A DNA stretch of 44,164 nucleotides, from the IMG/VR virus record IMGVR_UViG_3300033151_000248, positions 1 through 44,164 of that record; one strand, 5' to 3'. This document shows, piece after piece, positions 1 through 34,366 of the stretch. Position 1 is the first letter of the stretch, and each line of letters starts with the position of its first letter. Source of the DNA: a virus. The position numbers and the translations under genes were made by a program. The notes beneath the pieces are model-generated. The model searched no databases and had not been told where the DNA came from. It saw only the letters and a list, made by a program, of their open reading frames with translations.

Positions 1-1
1 T

Positions 2-2380
2 GCTGAAGAAATTGATGCTGCGGGCGTTCGTACTTTAATTAATGTAGAAGACGGAGCAGATGTTACATCTACTAATGAAACTACTCATGCTGATGTAGTT
101 CAAGATGGTGACTTTGGGTCTAACGGATATATGAAAAGAACTGGTGCTGGCGCCTATGGTGTCCAGTCTAGTCCTATTCCAGTTACAGAAACCGACGCTA
201 AATGTACGGATGCTACAGCAGACAATACAGCTGCGAATGAGACATCTCATACTACTGTAATGAATACTGATGATGTTGGTGAGATAAATGGTCTCGCTAA
301 TAAAGGTACTCCAGTCGCGGCTGATGAGCTAATTATTGAGGATAGCGCAGCATCATGGGGAAAGAAAAAGATTAGCTGGTCGCAATTACCAGGAGGAGCG
401 TCTGGAACTAATGTCCAAGTGGACACAGGCGGTAATCTTACTGATGCCGACTTCCAAGACGGTGGTGACATCAACTTTTCAGAAGCGGCAGGAGTTGTTA
501 CAGCTGCCATTAAAGCTGATACTGTTACTTATGATAAGATGCAGGATACGACTGACACGAATCTCTTTCTTGGACGTGACACTGCAGGTGGTGGTACTGT
601 AGAAGAAATAGCTAAAACAGAAGCTTTAGCAATCCTTAACGTGGAAGATGGTGCGGATGTAACATCAACAAACGAGACAACTCATGCTGATGTAGTTCAA
701 GACGGTGATTTCTCTTCAGCAGGGTATTGCAAAACAGATGGTGCAGGCGCATACTCTGTTCAATCTAGTCCTATTCCTGTTACCGAAACCGATGCCAAGT
801 GCACTGATGCACTAGCGGACCAGACTTCAGCCAATGAAACGTCTCATGCTACTGTTGTAACTGCTACGGCTGTTATAGGTGATAACCGTATCATCCGCGG
901 AGACGGAGGCATTCGGCTAGTACAGGCAGCTCTCCCAGAAATCAATGATGCCGGTACACTCGTCATGTCGAGTGGCGTTGGTATTCAAGCTGCATTTGGT
1001 CTTGATGAGAGTACGTATCCACGTTATTTCGCGAATCTTCGTAAGAATTTTACCGGCGCTTTAGTTAGTGACTACGCGGCAGTATATGTTCTAGCAAAAG
1101 ACATAAGTACTACGGTCGGCGGCGGCCATACAATGTACGGTAAGCAGCTTATAGCTGAGTGGGCGAGTGCTACTAACGGCGCTCAAGTTGATGATCTAAT
1201 CGGTGCTCAATTTATTTCAGACATTAATGTTAATGCTACTGGTACAGGTCAAACTGTCGGAAGTAACGTTTCTGGTCAGTTCACATGCAGAAATGTTAAT
1301 ACAATAGCTCGTACTATTGTTACACCAGCAGGCGGTCGTTTCTTATTTATATATACTGGTCAAAATCAAACTGTAACGGGTAATGCTGCTTCTGCATTAA
1401 TTGTAACTCCTTCAGCTCTTGGAAGTGGGACTACGCTTGCTAAGTACGGTGGCGTCTTTGTAGAAGACCAGAGAGCTATAGGTACTCTAAGTCAAGGTTT
1501 CTGGTTAGCTGCACAGTCGCTTGTATCGAGTGCGATAACAGGTAATTACTATGCAGAGGGCGGTAACTGGAATACTGGTCACTGGCAACTAGGTAACGCT
1601 CATATTTGGTTCGATGGAACTACATTATATGGTAAGATTAGTGCTCCTACGGGAGCGACTGATGGTACAGATCTTCTTGGTGGCGGAAGCGGTGAGACTA
1701 ATACTGCGTCTAACCAAGGTACAGACGGTGTAGGAGTTTATGACACTAAAGTAGTAGCAGATCTTCAGTTTCGTCATGTAGCTCCTGGCAGTACTAAGAT
1801 TACTACTACACTAAACGGTAAAGATATTGATATAGATGTAGTTGAGGCTAATCTTGTACATGATCATGACGGTGTTACTGGTGGTGGTACTGTAGATCAT
1901 GTTGATCTTGCTAATAAAGGTACCAATACTCATGGTGATATCGATAATCATATTACTGGTACAACTGAACATAGTGCTACCGGCGCTATTATGGGTACGA
2001 CTAATACCCAAACAGTAACGAATAAAGATCTGACTGCTGAGACTAATAAGCTACGATCTAGTAAGTCCTTTTCATTTGAGATCCCAGAAGATGGTGAACG
2101 CTTCCCGATCTATATGAACGAGCGAGCAATCACTATTCTAGGTGTTTCATTTTCATCCGAAGGCGGTACTAGTGTTCTCTTTAACTTAGAGTTCGGTACC
2201 ACGATTGCTTCTGGTACTGTTATCCACACGGATACTTGTGCAACTAGTACGCCTGAATGGGACGTAACTCCTAGCGGAGATAGTACTGTTCCCACTGATC
2301 AGATAATTATGCTTGAAATCACGACAGTTACGGCTACTGTTAATGTCATGCATGTCACGTTCTACTACACAGAAGACTAA
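2..2380 (+). CDS. Tail fibre protein, 5' end outside the window
   Basis: The reading frame is already open at the first base, so the true start lies upstream and the ATG at 131 is only internal. The visible 792 codons are rich in Thr, Gly, Asp and Ala and have no membrane segments. They contain motifs common in phage tail fibres: VEDGADVTSTNETTHADV, an AADELIIEDSAASWGKKKISW segment near 310-390, and TNTQTVTNKDLTAETNKL near 2000. A 73-residue unit occurs twice (41-259 and 638-856). The middle part (about 900-1640) looks like a beta-rich domain without recognisable motif, and the C-terminal 110 residues look like a compact beta domain. The likely role is host recognition in the virion. The stop overlaps the next start as TAATG. 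Fibre assignment is by composition and motif, so the receptor cannot be inferred. Confidence 0.75.
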   Translation, partial: AEEIDAAGVRTLINVEDGADVTSTNETTHADVVQDGDFGSNGYMKRTGAGAYGVQSSPIPVTETDAKCTDATADNTAANETSHTTVMNTDDVGEINGLANKGTPVAADELIIEDSAASWGKKKISWSQLPGGASGTNVQVDTGGNLTDADFQDGGDINFSEAAGVVTAAIKADTVTYDKMQDTTDTNLFLGRDTAGGGTVEEIAKTEALAILNVEDGADVTSTNETTHADVVQDGDFSSAGYCKTDGAGAYSVQSSPIPVTETDAKCTDALADQTSANETSHATVVTATAVIGDNRIIRGDGGIRLVQAALPEINDAGTLVMSSGVGIQAAFGLDESTYPRYFANLRKNFTGALVSDYAAVYVLAKDISTTVGGGHTMYGKQLIAEWASATNGAQVDDLIGAQFISDINVNATGTGQTVGSNVSGQFTCRNVNTIARTIVTPAGGRFLFIYTGQNQTVTGNAASALIVTPSALGSGTTLAKYGGVFVEDQRAIGTLSQGFWLAAQSLVSSAITGNYYAEGGNWNTGHWQLGNAHIWFDGTTLYGKISAPTGATDGTDLLGGGSGETNTASNQGTDGVGVYDTKVVADLQFRHVAPGSTKITTTLNGKDIDIDVVEANLVHDHDGVTGGGTVDHVDLANKGTNTHGDIDNHITGTTEHSATGAIMGTTNTQTVTNKDLTAETNKLRSSKSFSFEIPEDGERFPIYMNERAITILGVSFSSEGGTSVLFNLEFGTTIASGTVIHTDTCATSTPEWDVTPSGDSTVPTDQIIMLEITTVTATVNVMHVTFYYTED
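41..259 (+). repeat. Fibre repeat, copy 1
   Basis: This 219-bp unit encodes 73 residues starting NVEDGADVTSTNE and ending in NETSHTTV. It matches the unit at 638-856 at an offset of exactly 597 bases. Many third codon positions differ while the protein is nearly the same, so the duplication is old and held by selection. Confidence 0.85.
638..856 (+). repeat. Fibre repeat, copy 2
   Basis: This is the second copy of the 73-residue fibre unit, containing SSPIPVTETDAKCTDA, which is shared with copy 1. The 199-residue period includes a further fibre segment between the two copies. Confidence 0.85.
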
Positions 2381-15853: not shown

Positions 15854-17754
15854 GACGGTCCCCTTTCTACGTCTGCTACGATCGGTGTTCTGCACCACGA
15901 GAAATCCTGCATCTCTGCTACGATCATTGGTATCAGATGTTCATCGCTCTTATGTAATAGGAAGTCAACCTCATCGTGTACTGCTAGCATGATATGTGAG
16001 AGACTACCTGGTGGTAAGACGTCATTGTCTACTCGAATCATGGCATCCTTTAGCATATCAGCTGTGAGTCCTTGAATGAGATAGTTAACGCCAACGTAAG
16101 CTTTCGAGGCGGGGACCCTTTTGTGTCGCCCGTAATAGTTAAATATGTAGCCTCGTTTTCGTACCGTATTTTGTACTTGATCGATGAAGGTTTTAATTCC
16201 TTTGTAGATTTCAAAGTATCTATAATAGAAAGCTCTAACTTCTGCGAGATCGAAATAATGTCCATAGTCTCTCAGTGTAGATCTGACTCGTTTATAACCG
16301 GCTCCGTAGACGACAGCGAAATTAGTTTCTTTAGCAGCGTCTCGATATTGCTTCGCTTGAGTATCACCGTGTTTATACGAGTCAAGGAGTTCACTGTACT
16401 TGAAATCAAAAAGCTGTGCAGCAGTATCAGTGTGGATATCTCGTCCTTCCAAAAAGGCCCGGTGCATATGTTCATCTTGAGCGAAGTGGTCGAGTAATCT
16501 AAGTTCGAACTGACTTTGGTCGACCTTAAGCACTGAATAATCGTCTGGCGCTTTGAAACATTTTCTAATACCAAACGCCATCCGTAGAGCTTTGTTAGCA
16601 AAATCTGGAGCGCGAGTATATCTCGGCAATCGAGTAGGGATACCCTGCATATTCGGTTCTGAGGCGGACGCTCGTCCTGTTCTCGCACCAATCTGATTGT
16701 AGGAGCAGAAGATACGGCCATTATGCTCCCACTTGGTGAGACCTCCACTAAAAGTGGCGACATTATGCATGAGATTTCTGTAAGCCGCAAGGCATTCACC
16801 GAGTTCATTGTTCAACCCCATAAGTTGAGACTTACCCCATGAGGGCTTGTTCGTTCTCTTAGAGTACTCCAGTGGCTTAAACCCTAAGTTATTCATAAGG
16901 ATCGCGAGCTGAGTATCAGAGTTAAGGTTCTCAATAGGTCGGACAGTCTCGTCCATTTCAAAGATGAGATCCCAGATATGTTCTTCGAGTTTCTTTCCTG
17001 CCATAAACACCGGATCAACCAGATCTATGCACATCTTCTTATCAAATGGGAAGCCTTGTCTCTCCATCTTAGCGACAAGAAGGGTGAAGGCCATTTCATG
17101 CTTGTAGATGGACTCTCTAGTACCATCCTCCTCGACAGACTCCATCTTACAAGTGAGTAGAGTCTCTGCTCTAGTGAACCTACGCCACAATGCTAGTGTC
17201 AAGCAAGCATCCTCAGCACCGTATGGGCCTAGCATGTCCACAGGTATCTGCCCGTAGTTCTCTAATTTGTTTGACTTAAAGTATGCAGCTACTTCAGCTC
17301 CACGTTTTCCAGCTTCTCTATCAATGTACTGAGATGCAATGTACTTAAGCTGATGATTCCTTTCATTCTCATTACGTAGAAAAGTTAGAATCATAGCGTC
17401 TTCTACATTACGTAGCTCAATATCATGATTAAGCAACATGTTCATGTCAAATTTAATGTTCCAAAAGATCTTCTTTAATTTGGGGTCACCATACACTTCA
17501 TCACGAAGAAGCTGCTCGGTAATGTCCACTTCAGCAATGTTGCCCTCGGTATGCCGTACTGGAACGTAGAATCCATAATAAGTCCCTTCGACATAAGCAG
17601 CGAAACAATGAGATACAACTTTGGAGTTATACCACTTGAGTCCAGTGGTCTCAGTATCTGCACCGATTTCTCCATCAGCGGCCGTGCCTAATGTCTCGAT
17701 CATCTGTTTCAAGTCGTCGTGAGTCTTTACTATCTTTAAATTTCGCACGGACAT
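15823..17754 (-). CDS. polA: Family A DNA polymerase with 3'-5' exonuclease
   Basis: The product is 643 aa, the size of T7-like phage polymerases without a 5' nuclease. Exonuclease motifs are visible: D33-T-E35, KFD with Asp103, and Y178-G-A-E-D182. Polymerase motifs are also visible: motif A VDQSQFELR (Asp412), motif B R471-x3-K475-x3-F479-x3-Y483-G, and motif C HDE at 593-595. All catalytic residues are present and position 479 is Phe, so ordinary dNTP use is expected. It starts 80 bases inside the ThyA-like gene, with AGGGG upstream of the ATG. It is the replicative enzyme of the phage. Confidence 0.95.
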   Translation of the reverse strand: MSVRNLKIVKTHDDLKQMIETLGTAADGEIGADTETTGLKWYNSKVVSHCFAAYVEGTYYGFYVPVRHTEGNIAEVDITEQLLRDEVYGDPKLKKIFWNIKFDMNMLLNHDIELRNVEDAMILTFLRNENERNHQLKYIASQYIDREAGKRGAEVAAYFKSNKLENYGQIPVDMLGPYGAEDACLTLALWRRFTRAETLLTCKMESVEEDGTRESIYKHEMAFTLLVAKMERQGFPFDKKMCIDLVDPVFMAGKKLEEHIWDLIFEMDETVRPIENLNSDTQLAILMNNLGFKPLEYSKRTNKPSWGKSQLMGLNNELGECLAAYRNLMHNVATFSGGLTKWEHNGRIFCSYNQIGARTGRASASEPNMQGIPTRLPRYTRAPDFANKALRMAFGIRKCFKAPDDYSVLKVDQSQFELRLLDHFAQDEHMHRAFLEGRDIHTDTAAQLFDFKYSELLDSYKHGDTQAKQYRDAAKETNFAVVYGAGYKRVRSTLRDYGHYFDLAEVRAFYYRYFEIYKGIKTFIDQVQNTVRKRGYIFNYYGRHKRVPASKAYVGVNYLIQGLTADMLKDAMIRVDNDVLPPGSLSHIMLAVHDEVDFLLHKSDEHLIPMIVAEMQDFSWCRTPIVADVERGPSWGELETWSG

Positions 17755-18649
17755 TCTTTGCTTCCCCTCTTAGTGACGCATAAGGTTCTGGAAACTCTGA
17801 AGGAACTTGAGTTTCATCGACTCTTTTTAAAGACCAGTATGCCGTTAATAAATGCTTATGTATGTACGAAAATTGAGAATCTGGTACAAGGTTTTGTGGT
17901 AACTTGTGTCTCAATCTTAGAGCTTCTTCGTATTCAATAAGATACTCGAGATCCCCAAGATGCATTGATGGTAATCTCACAGGTTCGCCTGGATATTTGA
18001 TAGCATTTTCAATGTCTGCTAGATCTCTAGCGTAGGCATGCATGGAACCAACAATGTGGTTGTAGACACCAGGTCTGAACCCAGATAGTACGGCCATGTA
18101 CTTCTGTATCGTGGTGAAAGTGAAGATATCATAGGGGAAGCCTAACCATGCATCGTTACTTCTCATGTAGACGCTTAAATTAAGGGCGAAGTCTCGTACC
18201 ATAAAATGTAACATGATCGTACAAGGGATATCTTTAGACGGTTTTGGGGACGGTTGCCATATAGTAATAACAGCTTGACGTGTGTCTCTGTCACGCTTAA
18301 GCAGATTAAGCACATAGGTGATTTGAGTTCCAATTGGAGGACCGTACGCTCCTGCGAGTGTAGTACCATCATCTGAATACTTGGCCATCTGTTTGTTGTA
18401 TGGTAATAGAGGCTCGACCAAGCTAGAACCTGACCAGATCCACAGGACTTCAGCGAGACTAAAGGCATAGTTGAGTTTCCTGTATGGATTGGTTACAAGA
18501 TTATAGTCAGTATCAAGTAGAGTTAGGCATACTGGTGTGCCAATCTCCATGCACGTTGTTTGTCTTGGGCTAGTCATCGCGCCTTGTTTCACATGACCTA
18601 ACAAGCGTTGATATAGATACTCAGATGAGTTGCCTTCTATAGTGAGCAT
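17675..18649 (-). CDS. Thymidylate-synthase family enzyme, probably dCMP hydroxymethylase or methylase
   Basis: The product is 324 aa. It lines up with E. coli thymidylate synthase at a constant offset of three: Cys143 (C146, nucleophile, in IPCT), Arg163-Ser164 (R166-S167), Asp166 (D169), His204 (H207) and Tyr206 (Y209). At the position of Asn177, which selects dUMP, this protein has Asp174 (GFPYDIF). T4 dCMP hydroxymethylase also has Asp here, and the N-to-D change is known to turn TS towards dCMP. The MRSNDAWLGF segment also resembles T4 MRSNDVVFGF. It probably acts on dCMP with methylene-THF, giving hydroxymethyl- or methyl-dCMP. It is flanked by a dNMP kinase and the polymerase. Plain dTMP synthesis is less likely. 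Confidence 0.8.
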   Translation of the reverse strand: MLTIEGNSSEYLYQRLLGHVKQGAMTSPRQTTCMEIGTPVCLTLLDTDYNLVTNPYRKLNYAFSLAEVLWIWSGSSLVEPLLPYNKQMAKYSDDGTTLAGAYGPPIGTQITYVLNLLKRDRDTRQAVITIWQPSPKPSKDIPCTIMLHFMVRDFALNLSVYMRSNDAWLGFPYDIFTFTTIQKYMAVLSGFRPGVYNHIVGSMHAYARDLADIENAIKYPGEPVRLPSMHLGDLEYLIEYEEALRLRHKLPQNLVPDSQFSYIHKHLLTAYWSLKRVDETQVPSEFPEPYASLRGEAKNVRAKFKDSKDSRRLETDDRDIRHGR

Positions 18650-19527
18650 GCTTGTTTCAGTACCTCCGCATAGTTGACGTTAGACTGGAAACGTTGAGCG
18701 TGAGCGGGATGATTTACTTTGACTGCGATGTTTCTGTATCCGAGCTGTTTGATTCTCTCGTAGGCGACGGTTCCGAGGCAAATGATTTTCTTTGGATGCA
18801 GTCGTTTGACCAAAGATGCTGGTATAACTGAAGAGTCACTTGAAACGGCGTTGGTGTACGTGCAATACCGCTGGTTGACGCCAGCATTGTCGAGGGATCT
18901 ATGGAGATACTCTCCACTACTTGACCAGAAGGGGACTTGATGCTCAGCTCTAACGTTGAACCTTTCTCCAACAAACAAGAACCTAGGCCTACTTGAGCCG
19001 ATAAACTCCCAAGATAAGGATTCATCCTGTCTACGTCTCTCCCAAGCTTCTCCATTGATAGCCTCCTCAATTTTCGCTACGTGTGTGGTGTTTAAGAGTC
19101 CGTTGCATGAAATTGCATTTGTAAAGTTGTACTCAAAGACATTATCATACTCTTCGATAAGTTGGTCAACTTCACTATGTGATACGTAGGAGTCTGGCTC
19201 TTTCTCAAGTCGTCTATGAATTTCCTCTCTTTCAGGGCGCAGGTAAATGACCAGATGGGGAACTGTGAGTAACTGGAGAAGGAGTATTCTATAGGCCAGA
19301 TAATCCATATACCTGGTTCGTCTTTTAACAATACTATACGGAAGTTCTCCGAAGAGGAATCGGTCCAAGATGATCGGAGAGCTAATGTCTCTAAGAGTCT
19401 TTGAGTATTCAAAGGTGGGGTCCCCTTTGGGAATCCCGAACTTTCTGATTTCGAGTCCATACTTCTCCGATAGTTTGTTAGCGAGCGTTGTCTTTCCTGC
19501 TTTGTCTACACCTTCAAGGATAATCAT
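18637..19527 (-). CDS. dNMP kinase fused to uracil-DNA-glycosylase-like domain
   Basis: The product is 296 aa. I start at the ATG at 19527 (ATGA overlap with the upstream stop, GAGG 5 bases before) rather than 24 bases upstream. Residues 1-165 are a thymidylate-kinase-type P-loop domain: EGVDKAGKTTL with Lys12, DRF near 70, and a lid region with RPEREEIHRRL. Residues about 175-296 start RPRFLFVGE and end with VNHPAHAQRF, the frame of motifs of uracil-DNA-glycosylase family 4/5 proteins (GE...P.W and HP). The kinase would phosphorylate the product of the neighbouring ThyA-like enzyme. The second domain may bind or check bases, and whether it cuts is unknown. Confidence 0.7.
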   Translation of the reverse strand: MIILEGVDKAGKTTLANKLSEKYGLEIRKFGIPKGDPTFEYSKTLRDISSPIILDRFLFGELPYSIVKRRTRYMDYLAYRILLLQLLTVPHLVIYLRPEREEIHRRLEKEPDSYVSHSEVDQLIEEYDNVFEYNFTNAISCNGLLNTTHVAKIEEAINGEAWERRRQDESLSWEFIGSSRPRFLFVGERFNVRAEHQVPFWSSSGEYLHRSLDNAGVNQRYCTYTNAVSSDSSVIPASLVKRLHPKKIICLGTVAYERIKQLGYRNIAVKVNHPAHAQRFQSNVNYAEVLKQACSL

Positions 19528-20240
19528 TTGGTCCTCAACTTCCAGATGCAATTCCTTGAATGTTCCGGATGATTCGGTGCTAGGAGAACCGAGAGTATGT
19601 TTGTGTCGTAATATTTCTTAAGACTCTCAAAAACTTCCCTCTCTCCTTGAGAAAGAGCAGGTAAAATATCCCTCTGAGAAGCGAACGTACCATGAACCTC
19701 CTCAATGGTGAAATTTTTTCGTAGTTCTTCTCGCAACTCCACATATTCCCACTCATAGATATGATTCGCTGCTTTGGACCCATTGTAACAGGGAGTGGAT
19801 AAGAATATAGTACTAGATGAAGGGAGGAGCGAAAGATTTTCAAGGAGTTTGAGTCCATCTTCTTTCTCCATATGTTCAATAACTTCAAGACATGTTATAA
19901 TGTTAAAAGATTCAGGATATTCTTTTTCAAAATCAAGCCAATGATCTGAATTAGTAACATCAAATACAGGGAAAAGCTCGCATTTAAAGTTAAATTCTGG
20001 TTCTTCAAAATCACTTCGTATGTCAAGACCAACATAAAGATCTGGTTTAAACTTATTTGTGTACAACATCCAAGCAAGAGGATAGTTGATTCCACAACCT
20101 ACGTCGAGGATCCTCATTCCCATCTTAGCGTGTCGTAATATATGTGTCCATCTAAGACAATGCGCTAGATAGTCTCTGTGCACTATGCCTCGATCCTCGG
20201 CCTTATCGATATAGAGCTGAGTCTTGTTGTATTTACCCAC
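19524..20240 (-). CDS. Class I SAM-dependent methyltransferase
   Basis: The product is 238 aa from a GTG start. ILDVGCGINYPL (about 40) is motif I of Rossmann-type methyltransferases. GLDIRSD marks the acidic end of strand 2 and NIITCLEVIEHM marks motif III/IV. STPCYNG after strand 5 lacks the NPPY of N6-adenine enzymes and the Pro-Cys loop of C5-cytosine enzymes, so it is not an ordinary DNA methylase. Placed between a dUTPase/dCTPase and the nucleotide genes, it may modify a nucleotide or base. Substrate unknown. Confidence 0.75.
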   Translation of the reverse strand: MGKYNKTQLYIDKAEDRGIVHRDYLAHCLRWTHILRHAKMGMRILDVGCGINYPLAWMLYTNKFKPDLYVGLDIRSDFEEPEFNFKCELFPVFDVTNSDHWLDFEKEYPESFNIITCLEVIEHMEKEDGLKLLENLSLLPSSSTIFLSTPCYNGSKAANHIYEWEYVELREELRKNFTIEEVHGTFASQRDILPALSQGEREVFESLKKYYDTNILSVLLAPNHPEHSRNCIWKLRTK

Positions 20241-24918: not shown

Positions 24919-26634
24919 TTATTCCTCCGTGATGAATAGGCCTTTTAAGAACCCCTCAAGAACTGTAACATCTTTAAGAAGAAACTTTGAGATTCCCTCC
25001 TTTCTTCGTAATGCGTGGTGTACACTTTCCTCGACGGTGTTCTTGATACCGAGTAGAATGTATGTACTTCGGTCCCCTCCTCGGTTAATTCCGTGGATTC
25101 TATCTTGAGACTGAAGCCACTCTTCATTGGACCAACTCCTCGAGTAATAGATCGCCGTATCGCACCGCAAATCAATCCCATGCATAAATGCAGATGACTG
25201 TAAAATTATACAGCGTTGCCTGTCGTTTTCCGAATACGATCCATTGAACCAGTTTACCATATCACTGCGTTCAATTACAGGCGTTCTGCCCATGCCATAA
25301 CGCACGTCGGCCTTTGGAAACTCTTTTGAAATCAATGCATGTAGTCTTCTAATAGAATGGCGAAAATACGCCCAGATGATAACTTTATTCGAGGATTGAA
25401 AATGGTCAGCCAAAAAATCCAGGAGCTCTGCGTCCTTAGGCGAAGCATGGTTGCTAGCAGATCCGTCAGGATTATACAGAAACCCATCACAGTACTGCAA
25501 GCAACGATTAATTCGAGATATGGCAAGGGTGTTGTCGATGATTTGCCCACCCAACTCAAGTATAGTGGCCTCGACGAGATCTTTATAACCTTTCCGAAAA
25601 TCATCAGTTTGAGCCACATCGAGTTTTTGGAATACTTTGGGTGGAAGGTCCAAGCAGTCTCTTTTGAGTGCTCTAAACGAAAATCGCTCGATCTTATTTT
25701 GTAACTCAGCAGTATTTTTGTAGCCAAGCACCTCGTAGCCACCAAATCCTCCAAATACCATGTATCTCTTCTTAAAGCCATACTCGTTGGCTCCGAAGAT
25801 ATTAGGATTCAAGAACCGAAATTGTCCGTAAGCATCGAGAGGGGAATTAACCAACGGCGTTCCAGTGAGTATAAGTTTGTACTTAATCTTTGAGCTGATA
25901 TGCACGCATGCTTTATAGCGTTTTGTTCTAGTGCTCTTAATAGCAGTTGACTCGTCAAGGACGATTGCATCCCATTCAATGGCGGCCAGCGGTCCAAGGA
26001 AAGAGTGGACATATTCAAAGTTAATGATACATATAGTCCCTGAATCTTGGCGCTCTGAATAACGGCTGGCGGTTCGTAGTGCTTGCGTCCTTTCACTTCG
26101 TGTCCCCTTAAGAATGAAGGGTCGATAGTCTGAGTGCTTACGTATCTCGTCTGCCCACTTGTAACAGTTTGAATTCCGGCAAACCATCAGAGTCAAGCTG
26201 CAACCCTTAAGGTCCAGCCAGTCGAGAGCCATCTTACTCTTGCCGGTTCCTTGTTCGCTGAGATTCGCGCAGGCTTTGAAGTTGCTAGCCCAAGCCAGCC
26301 ACTGCGCTTGATGACCAAGGCATTTGGTCTTGGTAAGATCTACGTGTGAGTTACTGGGTAAGTCGAACTTGTGATCTGCTAAGTAGGTGAGTTGACAGCT
26401 TGTATTCCATACTGTTGAGTCAACTTCAACGTCTGGCATCTGCCAGAATTTACCTATTACTTCCGGTGCTGATTCAACAGGATAGACCCAAGCCGGATTC
26501 TTTCGGTCGTATTTCCGTGTAGATATGGACTTACATGCTGCAAGATACATTCCAAAGTGACTACTCCCCAGTACTACTCTGATCTGGTCTCGATACAGTT
26601 GTATCGTTGTCTTCGGAGGAAGATCCGATTGCAT
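24919..26634 (-). CDS. SNF2-like superfamily 2 helicase
   Basis: The product is 571 aa. Motif I is EQGTGKS (Lys132), motif II is DEST (227-230), motif III is LTGTP (256-260), and the C-terminal motifs include FMHGIDL and QSQDRIHGINR. The order and the size fit phage SNF2/UvsW-like helicases that remodel branched DNA or open replication origins. The N-terminal 100 residues form an accessory domain with a short HARP-like feel (YRDQIRVVLG), which is uncertain. The start lies 74 bases inside the upstream regulator gene. Confidence 0.85.
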   Translation of the reverse strand: MQSDLPPKTTIQLYRDQIRVVLGSSHFGMYLAACKSISTRKYDRKNPAWVYPVESAPEVIGKFWQMPDVEVDSTVWNTSCQLTYLADHKFDLPSNSHVDLTKTKCLGHQAQWLAWASNFKACANLSEQGTGKSKMALDWLDLKGCSLTLMVCRNSNCYKWADEIRKHSDYRPFILKGTRSERTQALRTASRYSERQDSGTICIINFEYVHSFLGPLAAIEWDAIVLDESTAIKSTRTKRYKACVHISSKIKYKLILTGTPLVNSPLDAYGQFRFLNPNIFGANEYGFKKRYMVFGGFGGYEVLGYKNTAELQNKIERFSFRALKRDCLDLPPKVFQKLDVAQTDDFRKGYKDLVEATILELGGQIIDNTLAISRINRCLQYCDGFLYNPDGSASNHASPKDAELLDFLADHFQSSNKVIIWAYFRHSIRRLHALISKEFPKADVRYGMGRTPVIERSDMVNWFNGSYSENDRQRCIILQSSAFMHGIDLRCDTAIYYSRSWSNEEWLQSQDRIHGINRGGDRSTYILLGIKNTVEESVHHALRRKEGISKFLLKDVTVLEGFLKGLFITEE

Positions 26635-26863
26635 AACCCTTGTACTCCTCTTTCAACAGGTCAGTGATCGTGAGCTTCAGCACATTACATATGGCTGAAA
26701 TCGCTTCGTCACTACCTCCACCGTTGAGGATGTTTCCGATATGCGCGGGAGTGAATTCGGTCTTTCGTGCTAGGGCGCTGTTATTGATGCCTAACTCAAC
26801 CATCCGTAGTTTGAAGATGCTGAGGTAGTCATCTTTTAACATATCTTTCAATAGCGAAGTCAT
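26561..26863 (-). CDS. XRE-type helix-turn-helix regulator
   Basis: The product is 100 aa. Residues about 18-68 contain LGINNSALARKTEFTPAHIGNILNGG, the helix-turn-helix of Cro/C1-type regulators, and are followed by an acidic Ser/Asp-rich tail. It is the first gene after the promoter at 26891-26919 and heads the whole replication operon, so it may control that promoter by feedback. Its tail region overlaps the helicase gene by 74 bases in another frame. There is no sign of a lysogeny module, so it is probably a lytic-timing regulator. Confidence 0.75.
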   Translation of the reverse strand: MTSLLKDMLKDDYLSIFKLRMVELGINNSALARKTEFTPAHIGNILNGGGSDEAISAICNVLKLTITDLLKEEYKGYAIGSSSEDNDTTVSRPDQSSTGE

Positions 26864-26890: not shown

Positions 26891-26919
26891 ATTATATCAC
26901 AAGCGATTAATACTGTAAA
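26891..26919 (-). promoter_or_regulatory. Sigma-70 promoter of replication operon
   Basis: On the minus strand TTTACA (26919-26914), 17 bases, then TGATATAAT with the -10 at 26896-26891. The -10 is perfect and extended (TGn). It lies 28 bases upstream of the regulator start and is the only good promoter before the replication genes. Confidence 0.85.
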
Positions 26920-31831: not shown

Positions 31832-31984
31832 TTATTTGTCAAGATGCTTGAGGTCCGTCTTGACTATTCTCTCTATAACTTCATCGATGCTTTTGTTGTT
31901 GAGATTTGCCAGAATTTTGATCCTGTTAAGAGCTTCATTGGAAAGCTCTAGTTTGACCTTAGTCTTCTTTTTCTTCCAGAACAT
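31832..31984 (-). CDS. 50-aa ribbon-helix-helix regulator
   Basis: AGGAG lies 5 bases before the ATG. The layout is a basic start (MFWKKKKTK), a strand VKLELS, helix 1 NEALNRIKILANLNN and helix 2 SIDEVIERIVKTDLK, as in Arc/CopG-type ribbon-helix-helix dimers. It is a good candidate for a DNA-binding regulator of the early promoters about 550 bases upstream. Confidence 0.7.
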   Translation of the reverse strand: MFWKKKKTKVKLELSNEALNRIKILANLNNKSIDEVIERIVKTDLKHLDK

Positions 31985-31993
31985 CAAGTCTCC

Positions 31994-32269
31994 TTATTCT
32001 GGTTTGTCTTCACTCTTAAACATCTTGTCTATAAATGCGTGATCCTCCCGACACTCTTTAATAGCATCGATTTCAAGTTTGAAGGTCTGGTCTGTGTTAA
32101 TGGGTTCGAGGGTAATGATCAGAGCACTAGCGCCTTCATTGTCAATTTCATGGACGACGCCAGTCATGAAGTCCGCCCCGGCATGATCATCTTCAGTATC
32201 ACAGACAATTTCTACTTCACATGTTTCCGGGACGCCTCCGACGTACATTGGGTACACGTAGATCTTCAT
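31994..32269 (-). CDS. 91-aa acidic early protein
   Basis: The ATG overlaps the upstream stop (ATGA). The protein is acidic and beta-rich (MKIYVYPMYVGGVPETCEVE, ALIITLEPINTD) with a helical acidic end. An acidic mimic type of protein is possible, but nothing specific supports it. Confidence 0.6.
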   Translation of the reverse strand: MKIYVYPMYVGGVPETCEVEIVCDTEDDHAGADFMTGVVHEIDNEGASALIITLEPINTDQTFKLEIDAIKECREDHAFIDKMFKSEDKPE

Positions 32270-32481
32270 GACTTGCTACACCATCCTTTTGACTCAGCTA
32301 TGTAGTCATTGTAGATGTTCATTTCATTCATGCAGTCCTCGATGAGGTCGAGGTGATGGTTGGATTTGGTGCGTCCTAGGAACGCCTTGGCCATGTATTC
32401 AACAAGATCAGAGAGATACTGCTCCTGCCGACATCGCAAGATGCCATCTTCATCTAATATACTTTGTAATGTTCTCGCCAC
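32266..32481 (-). CDS. 71-aa first early gene of the block
   Basis: The GTG at 32481 is chosen since AGGAGG lies 8 bases upstream; a GTG 9 bases earlier overlaps this site. The protein is helical with several Cys and His (RCRQEQYLSDLVEYMAKAFL). It is the first gene behind the leftward promoter at 32535-32563. Confidence 0.6.
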   Translation of the reverse strand: MARTLQSILDEDGILRCRQEQYLSDLVEYMAKAFLGRTKSNHHLDLIEDCMNEMNIYNDYIAESKGWCSKS

Positions 32482-32534
32482 TACTATCACCTCCTTTAGG
32501 CTTGTTCATGGTTATTATTTGTCTCATTAATAAT

Positions 32535-32563
32535 ATTATATCACAAGTAAAATCAAAAGTGAA
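32535..32563 (-). promoter_or_regulatory. Leftward early promoter
   Basis: On the minus strand TTCACT (32563-32558), 17 bases, TGATATAAT with the -10 at 32540-32535. Its -35 and -10 are exact mirror positions of the rightward promoter about the centre 32736. Confidence 0.8.
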
Positions 32564-32606
32564 ATCTCGTTTGACCTTTTAATAGCTTATTTAAATAAGT
32601 TAAAAT

Positions 32607-32865
32607 CATTATTTGAAGTTAACAGAGGCGTAGTATAATAAAATCGAAATTGGAGATTGATTTGAATTTTTTAATCTTTGACCTAATCTAAGAAGACCTA
32701 GCCCCAGAAAGAGAGTATATATATATAAGAGATGATTTGCTCGCGCCTCTATACTCCTCTACGCTAGGGTAGCCTAGGGCTTAGATTGGAATAATGTTTA
32801 AAAAATCCAAATACACTTTGCGATTCGGATTATTTATACCACATCTCTGTTAACCTCAAATAATG
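32607..32865. repeat. Large imperfect palindrome in early/late control region
   Basis: This is the core of the gene-free stretch 32482-32943. A 21-bp arm at 32607-32627 is the reverse complement of 32845-32865 with one mismatch (core CTCTGTTAAC). Inner pairs 32660-32676 with 32796-32812 (15 of 17) and 32685-32692 with 32780-32787 (8 of 8) lie at exact mirror positions about 32736. The central 100 bases are only loosely symmetric and include a TA repeat near 32717-32727. No gene is visible here. It may be a regulator array, an origin or a packaging site. Confidence 0.85.
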
Positions 32866-32908
32866 AAGTAAACTGTGATTTTATTTGTTACAATAGTCGC
32901 TACTAATG

Positions 32909-32937
32909 TGTACAAAGATAAAAAAGCGTGATAGAAT
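32909..32937 (+). promoter_or_regulatory. Rightward late promoter
   Basis: TGTACA (32909-32914), 17 bases, then TGATAGAAT with the -10 at 32932-32937. Transcription would start near 32944, which is the first base of the next ATG, so the message may be leaderless. Confidence 0.65.
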
Positions 32938-32943
32938 ACTTAC

Positions 32944-33555
32944 ATGACTGAGTTAATTAAGACTGCATCTAAGATCGGGTTTCCTGCGAAACCAGACGAA
33001 CCGTTGGCGCTAGAACAGCGTCGTGAGATGGTTCGTAAGGCACGGAGTGCTAAACTCTATGAGCCGTTGGGAGAGCACGTAAACTCGTCTAATGTTGAGC
33101 GTTTAGAACCGTTACTTAATATCTTATCTGATACTAGCGCCCAAACACGGCGCAGAGTTCACAAAATGATTGAGATTTTACTCGAGCCTGGGGCGTACGT
33201 CCTGAGCTTCCGTGATCTATGTACTAAGATGGATGTCACATACAACAATTGGTGGCGAACCGTAGCTCAATACCCTGCAATATGGCGATTCGTGAATGCT
33301 ATAGTAATCGGTACAACCGACCTTGAGTTTGAGGGCAGAGTGCATGGTGCAGTGGCTCAACGGGCTATAGACGGTGGACACCAAGACTCACGCCTCTACT
33401 TAGAGCTGACGAAGAAACTCTCCCGTACAGGTTCGAAGGGCGGAGGCGGTAATACTATCATCTTCATTCAAGACACCATGAGTAGAGCAGAATATAGCCC
33501 CAAGGGCTCAGGCCCTAGTACTTTGGACCTGGAGATCGTGGATGCAGAGCCTTGA
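32944..33555 (+). CDS. Possible terminase small subunit
   Basis: The product is 203 aa. The central part (about 75-125) contains LSFRDLCTKMDVTYNNWWRTVAQYP, a helix-turn-helix-like segment as in small terminases that recognise the packaging site, preceded by a basic helix (QRREMVRKARSAK). The C-terminal part is Gly-rich (SKGGGGNTIIFIQ) and acidic at the end. It is the first rightward gene, about 900 bases before the large terminase, with an unrelated minus-strand gene between. No Shine-Dalgarno lies before the ATG. Call by position and domain layout. Confidence 0.5.
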   Translation: MTELIKTASKIGFPAKPDEPLALEQRREMVRKARSAKLYEPLGEHVNSSNVERLEPLLNILSDTSAQTRRRVHKMIEILLEPGAYVLSFRDLCTKMDVTYNNWWRTVAQYPAIWRFVNAIVIGTTDLEFEGRVHGAVAQRAIDGGHQDSRLYLELTKKLSRTGSKGGGGNTIIFIQDTMSRAEYSPKGSGPSTLDLEIVDAEP

Positions 33556-33622: not shown

Positions 33623-33895
33623 TTACTCACTGATCGGTTGGAAGACCGTGTACTTGGAGTAGAACTCGTTCCACCAAGCTTTCGCCATGGTCTCGTCGGC
33701 CATGACACTCTCGACCTCGCCCCCGTGCTTGAGCTCGATGGCGGCGGTGATGAACTCAGCCTTGGTGAAGCTCTCTTGCTCCAGTGCCCAGCCGAACAGT
33801 GCACGCTTGCTCGTGCCGCGGCGGTAGGGGTTGACAGGATTGTCAATCTCCACACCGTCCACGCGAACGATCGCTTTTACCTTAAAGTTCTTCAT
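33623..33895 (-). CDS. 90-aa hypothetical protein, own transcription unit
   Basis: I start at 33895 since AGGAG lies 6 bases upstream; an ATG at 33973 has no site. The protein starts MKNFKVKAIVRVDGVEIDNP and is followed by NPYRRGTSKRALFGWALEQ and an acidic-aromatic end (AWWNEFYSKY). It lies alone between two rightward genes, with its own promoter and a strong terminator, like a moron gene. GC content is higher than in the flanking intergenic DNA. Confidence 0.7.
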   Translation of the reverse strand: MKNFKVKAIVRVDGVEIDNPVNPYRRGTSKRALFGWALEQESFTKAEFITAAIELKHGGEVESVMADETMAKAWWNEFYSKYTVFQPISE

Positions 33896-33973
33896 CTCCG
33901 TCTCCTTTACAATTGCTCTTCGGAACGATATGTCCCTTTGAGCTAATTTATTTAATGTTATTATAGGTTTCAT

Positions 33974-34366
33974 TATTTAGTTATTTATGTTACAATTAAT
34001 TTAATATTTAGTTATTTAAATATCATATAATTATTTTCATTCTCCTTATTAATTATAAATACATTATAACATATTTCATAACTTTTGTACACATAAATAA
34101 CACAATATATAAATATTTGTTCTTATAATAACTCAATCATAAGTATGTACTATTATATATAATGTAACAATTATAACATAGTTATTATAATAATGTATGC
34201 AATAAATACAATACCTATACAAAAGGTATAAGAATTTGAGCCCCGGGGTTAATTCTTTAATACTATTAGAGCAAATAGAGCTTTGCCGGCTACGCACGCA
34301 GTGAACGCGTCCAAATTTTTTAGGAAAGAGTACTTCTTCTGCTGTAAATAGAATATAGGCCAAAGT
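33974..34366. other. AT-rich gene-free stretch before the terminase
   Basis: About 390 bases of very AT-rich DNA hold a leftward promoter (34063-34091), repeats of ATTTAGTTATTTA near 33971-34018 and many TATAAT-like words. They also hold a short GC island with GAGCCCCGGGGTT (34238-34250), then ACGCACGCAGTGAACGCGT and a T run near 34317. No gene is supported; the leftward frame at 34133-34363 is biased and lacks a site. An origin or a packaging signal could lie here. Confidence 0.5.
34063..34091 (-). promoter_or_regulatory. Promoter of the 90-aa gene
   Basis: On the minus strand TGTACA (34091-34086), 17 bases, then TATAAT (34068-34063). It uses the same -35 word as the rightward late promoter. 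The leader to the 33895 start is about 160 bases. Confidence 0.7.

Follow-up and report, generated by a model that had tools for sequence, protein, structure and literature searches.

What does a long palindrome do, if it does anything, when it is centered exactly midway between two divergent phage promoters? The question is raised by a 44,164-base virus record (IMG/VR IMGVR_UViG_3300033151_000248), which was analyzed over its whole length and is called the window here. The middle of the window carries a leftward unit with genes for DNA polymerase A, thymidylate synthase, a primase, and a SNF2-type helicase. Its right part carries a rightward structural unit that includes a large terminase gene, assigned by family match, as well as portal-sized and capsid-sized genes, assigned from their location and from a weak resemblance to annotated capsids. 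The palindrome sits where the two units diverge, between the first gene of the leftward unit (32266-32490, minus strand; 74 aa, no family match) and the first gene of the rightward unit (32944-33555, plus strand; 203 aa, no family match). Judging from its position, the latter is probably the small terminase gene, and the gene at the same place in a syntenic relative, referred to as G001, encodes a protein that is 29% identical.

Elsewhere in the window, a 304-aa gene (18637-19551) has a thymidylate-kinase-like domain match at its start and a uracil-DNA glycosylase superfamily match at its end, and is an apparent fusion of the two parts. A further locus (L020, 13531-16154) runs approximately 2.4 kb beyond the right end of the window and then returns, with a 94% match, to window positions 1-250. 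The genome may therefore be a circularly permuted one, of which the window covers only a part; this is not certain, as the window start falls within a repeat-bearing gene.

A palindrome between two gene units

An imperfect palindrome (inverted repeat) of 277 bp occupies positions 32598-32874, with its center at 32736, the position on which both pairs of arms found by an inverted-repeat search are centered. The outer left arm (32598-32648, 51 nt, plus strand) is 78% complementary to the outer right arm (32824-32874, minus strand). The inner left arm (32660-32692, 33 nt, plus strand), with a run of six T and AATCTAAG, is 79% complementary to the inner right arm (32780-32812, minus strand). The most conserved block, CATTATTTGAAGTTAACAGAG, lies at 32607-32627 and pairs with 32845-32865 with one mismatch; its two copies are equidistant from their respective promoters, and 83 bp separate the middle of each -10 box from the center of the GTTAAC core in the corresponding outer arm. 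The center (32693-32779), which includes the run TATATATATATA at 32716-32727, has diverged. Here, gapped alignment recovered shifted inner pairs, namely CCTAG (32697-32701) with CTAGG (32774-32778) and GAGTATA (32713-32719) with TATACTC (32750-32756), and the inner part aligned alone gave p = 0.026. A gapped self-match covers all of 32598-32874, center included, at 68.5%. The preliminary description of this locus had listed mirrored pairs of 21, 17, and 8 bp, the coordinates of which we confirmed. The palindrome that it reported is real, but its extent was understated, given arms of 51 and 33 nt and the gapped inner match.

The palindrome is also unusual. About its center, 99 of 201 mirrored positions pair, compared with a window-wide mean of 50.9 (sd 6.5), and 32736 is the best palindromic center of all in the 44-kb window. 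The ungapped palindrome score was 41, whereas 60 dinucleotide shuffles averaged 11.4 (sd 1.1, maximum 15), which places it 26 standard deviations above them, while the banded gapped score was reached by none of 1000 shuffles under each of six settings. When other A/T-rich intergenic stretches, chosen automatically as control regions, were subjected to banded alignment, no comparable symmetry was found. Nor did anything score as high in approximately 805 kb of fetched phage loci, a redundant set from which this virus was left out; the nearest reached 57 bits versus 71 here. The preliminary description had allowed that mirror pairs of this quality might be expected in shuffled sequence. With that test run, the palindrome lies far beyond shuffled expectation, and chance is excluded. 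An assembly artifact in the form of a foldback chimera was likewise ruled out, because the arms match only at 78-79% and three assemblies agree.

Divergent promoters in mirror register

Each side of the palindrome is flanked by a candidate sigma-70-type promoter that faces outward. The leftward promoter (32535-32563, minus strand) consists of TTCACT (-35, 32558-32563) and TATAAT (-10, 32535-32540) and has a 10/12 match, while the rightward promoter (32909-32937, plus strand) consists of TGTACA (-35, 32909-32914) and TAGAAT (-10, 32932-32937) and has a 9/12 match. Both have the features of sigma-70 extended -10 promoters (hexamers 16-18 nt apart, TG before the -10 box), with a 17-nt spacer in each case and extended -10 sequences TTGTGATATAAT and GCGTGATAGAAT, respectively. 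Furthermore, both are within one mismatch of an extended -10 family, CGTGATATAAT, with sites at 26891, 28665, 29230, 32535, and 32927 in the window and at 15973, 17209, 17940, and 19452 in the early unit of G001. The recurrence of this family in the two phages provides independent support that the two sites are promoters. As sequence, the divergent pair is credible, and we infer that it is active.

Several smaller features of these sites were observed. The CGTGATATAAT family often occurs with TTTAC at -35 and marks internal promoters of the leftward units in both phages. The spacer and -35 region of the leftward promoter (32540-32566) form a 12-bp tandem repeat of 2.2 copies. An 11-bp -35 element, ATGTGTACAAA, has only two exact occurrences in the 44 kb, at 32906-32916 and 34084-34094; one belongs to the rightward promoter (32909) and the other to a promoter-like site that faces left (34063-34091).

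The two -10 boxes are 403 bp apart, and the center of the palindrome coincides exactly with the midpoint of the promoter pair. The -10 and -35 boxes are at the positions first described for them, in exact mirror placement about 32736. The stretches from each -10 box to its arm are no more similar than expected by chance (p = 0.58), so what supports the outer symmetry is the position of the promoters together with their consensus.

Comparison with relatives

Relatives were collected through scans with the small and large terminase, capsid, ATPase, and helicase, and only G001 (L009:6426-6903; IMG/VR 3300010392_000130; terminase 65% identical) keeps the whole divergent region. It has the same gene order and the same divergent promoter pair, with TAGAAT rightward and TATAAT leftward in both phages. 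The -10 to -10 distance is 413 bp versus 403 bp in the window, and the gap between the divergent genes is 478 bp versus 453 bp. In the divergent region of G001, there is no clear palindrome and there are no arms similar to those of the window, and direct similarity between the two regions was not above that of shuffles. The best inverted match in G001 (27-nt arms) is centered approximately 5 bp from its promoter midpoint, with p = 0.009 in a test that was limited, post hoc, to this location. When the two halves of the G001 region were aligned with banding, p ranged from 0.001 to 0.09, depending on scoring and null model. The comparison with related phages that the preliminary description had suggested therefore has a single informative member, which lacks similar arms and appears to have weak symmetry at most. 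Because the divergent pair occurs in G001 with little change in spacing but with no clear palindrome, duplication is probably not what produced the promoters, and the pair is probably older than the clear palindrome. The nearly constant -10 spacing also argues that the whole spacer does something.

No relatives were found when GTDB was scanned with the large terminase, and distant blastn of the region against cultured phages gave no match. In IMG/VR, the exact 18-base arm pattern was confined to two assemblies of this virus that are nearly identical, and a longer arm pattern was found in no GTDB genome; these were exact patterns, which diverged copies would escape. Besides the window, only two assemblies have the region, and both represent the same virus (at least 99.9%). 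Of the seven differences that set them apart from the window, three lie within the 277-bp palindrome, including one within its best conserved block; this is not suggestive of strong constraint. The palindrome may be a hot spot of mutation, or its hairpin may have been hard to sequence or assemble. The Paenibacillus phages SV21 and API480 (terminase 33%) were set aside as not comparable: their divergent region is shorter, and the inverted match that they do have consists of A/T-rich sequence that covers the promoters with a different spacing.

Possible roles of the palindrome

The reading that we favor, with a probability of approximately 40%, is that of a bidirectional control region acting at the DNA level, in which mirrored sites serve one phage regulator of both units. 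The preliminary description had proposed a divergent control region between the leftward unit and the rightward packaging gene, and this is supported, with strong mirror symmetry, credible promoters, and a large excess over shuffles. The DNA between the promoters holds the same blocks in mirrored order. Two host-type sigma-70 promoters would fire outward, the left one into the early unit and the right one into the terminase unit. A dimeric or multimeric phage DNA-binding protein would bind both halves of the palindrome, equidistant from both promoters, and would tune the two jointly, possibly through a bridge between the arms. With a promoter facing outward on each side, the palindrome lies upstream of both starts, and the element is therefore expected to act as DNA and not as RNA.

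The leftward unit encodes two proteins that plausibly bind DNA, and each is a candidate for the regulator. The first is a ribbon-helix-helix-like protein of 51 aa (31832-31987, minus strand; third gene of the unit), with sub-threshold Pfam matches to CopG_antitoxin, DUF6364, and DUF7557 and weak fold matches led by Arc and CdbA, with CopG among them and none below E = 1. The second is a Cro/CI-type helix-turn-helix protein of 100 aa (26561-26863, minus strand), with an HTH_26 match above the cut-off and a 50% identical counterpart in G001. The arm sequence did not recur at any other promoter checked, and the arms were ruled out as a general operator. The earlier suggestion of a shared activator or repressor site consequently fares less well, with the arms absent from the other promoters checked and no regulator tied to them. 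A stronger version of the control-region reading, which we consider decidedly improbable, would have every site of a 400-bp element doubled, one per direction, with one protein complex balancing the early and packaging promoters and G001 carrying a diverged version.

The closest functional parallel is the early/late region of phage phi29. In its central control region, which contains promoters A2c, A2b, and A3 and is served by proteins p4 and p6, p4 binds imperfect inverted repeats between the early and late promoters. This single phage protein is both a repressor of early transcription and an activator of late transcription, and it also folds the DNA into a hairpin (PMC3100819). The likeness lies in early and late promoters that share one region with imperfect inverted repeats and A-tracts; for the window, the early/late layout is assigned by gene direction and content, and the timing of expression is inferred from it. 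However, phi29 has four separate p4 sites over approximately 120 bp that overlap the early -35 boxes, with consensus CTTTTT-N15-AAAATG (PMC3100819), whereas the phage studied here has one 277-bp palindrome centered between the promoters and overlapping neither. The p4 motif is absent from 32480-32960 at up to 3 mismatches. The leftward genes adjoining the region gave no PHROG or Pfam match above threshold, and no p4 relative was recognized among them. Phages are known to have divergent control regions that contain inverted sites, but it is unusual for such a region to include a 277-bp palindrome aligned exactly with both promoters. Should the palindrome have a function, it would amount to a natural bidirectional switch of compact form; should it be neutral, it would document the way in which inverted duplications originate and are retained between the promoters of phages.

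Neutral decay is a serious rival to the control-region reading, although we think it somewhat unlikely. Here, an inverted duplication would have arisen locally, through template switching in replication for instance, between pre-existing divergent promoters and would now be drifting. The promoters would be in mirror register by coincidence, and divergence at the center would relieve the instability of long palindromes. Such an event would account for a self-match that extends through the center, for the absence of above-chance similarity in the stretches that separate each arm from its -10 box, for a promoter pair without a clear palindrome in G001, and for the differences among assemblies that fall in the palindrome. 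The preliminary description had instead imagined a duplication in which only functional sites were kept. This finds little support, as the matches are only marginally clustered into blocks (p = 0.056), which is also in keeping with drift, and the promoters likely predate the palindrome. However, the palindrome would then have come into exact register with the promoters by coincidence, with a probability of approximately 1-2% by a rough after-the-fact estimate that was not computed. The spacer is no longer than that of G001, so nothing was simply added, and G001 has some weak symmetry of its own near its promoter midpoint.

It is less likely still that the region is a palindromic replication origin placed between divergent units, with a TA-rich melting element near the center and mirrored initiator sites. 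The oriL and oriS elements of herpes simplex virus, which would be the model, have a palindromic structure. They are located between divergent genes (PMC10541914), and the resemblance would lie in a symmetric element with an A/T-rich middle in such a location. The phage palindrome is far less perfect, has its A/T run off center and no known initiator boxes, and belongs to an unrelated virus. In favor of an origin, TATATATATATA lies near the center, 14 bp off it, and the region has the potential for a long stable hairpin in single-stranded DNA (z = -6.2 and -8.7). The cumulative GC skew also turns near 33-36 kb in both the window and G001, but this turn falls where the genes change direction; transcription direction explains it equally well, and it adds no independent evidence. 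No DnaA box in the palindrome is better than one mismatch (one such match, at 32795), family matching recognized no initiator protein among the window genes, and the lack of a clear palindrome in G001 also speaks against an origin.

An RNA element seems very improbable. Weak inward promoters in the arms would give rise to hairpin RNAs or long structured leaders, and a candidate, TTTGAA-16-TATAAT, is found at 32612-32639 together with its mirror. The plus-strand version has a 9/12 match, but the mirrored minus-strand hexamer is weaker (TATAAA), and A/T-rich DNA often yields promoter matches of this kind. As RNA, each strand folds much better than shuffled sequence (z = -7.9 and -9.8), but this is a property of any palindrome. 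A strand-specific excess of wobble pairs was absent (5 G-T-type versus 5 A-C-type; 4 versus 5 in the arms), and Rfam gave no match for the region. Least probable of all is a mobile element, either a hairpin-type miniature element or an IS remnant with terminal inverted repeats: arms of approximately 50 nt do flank a 175-nt interior, but there is a single copy in the window, exact arm patterns (which would miss diverged copies) are limited in IMG/VR to the same virus and have no match in GTDB genomes, no target-site duplication is visible by eye, and the spacer is not longer than that of G001.

Two other repeat structures were observed among the fetched loci. In an otherwise different phage, a 241-bp imperfect palindrome rich in CACGACG (L062, 5082-5322; also in L061) is non-coding, lies near the terminase genes, and may be an iteron-type origin. 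In another locus (L012, 665-875), two copies of ATTATATCACGAA-TTGTA lie upstream of a homologue of the window gene at 33623-33973; TGTAA units approximately 11 bp apart are followed there by inverted TTACA units, and the arrangement looks like a phased protein-binding array.
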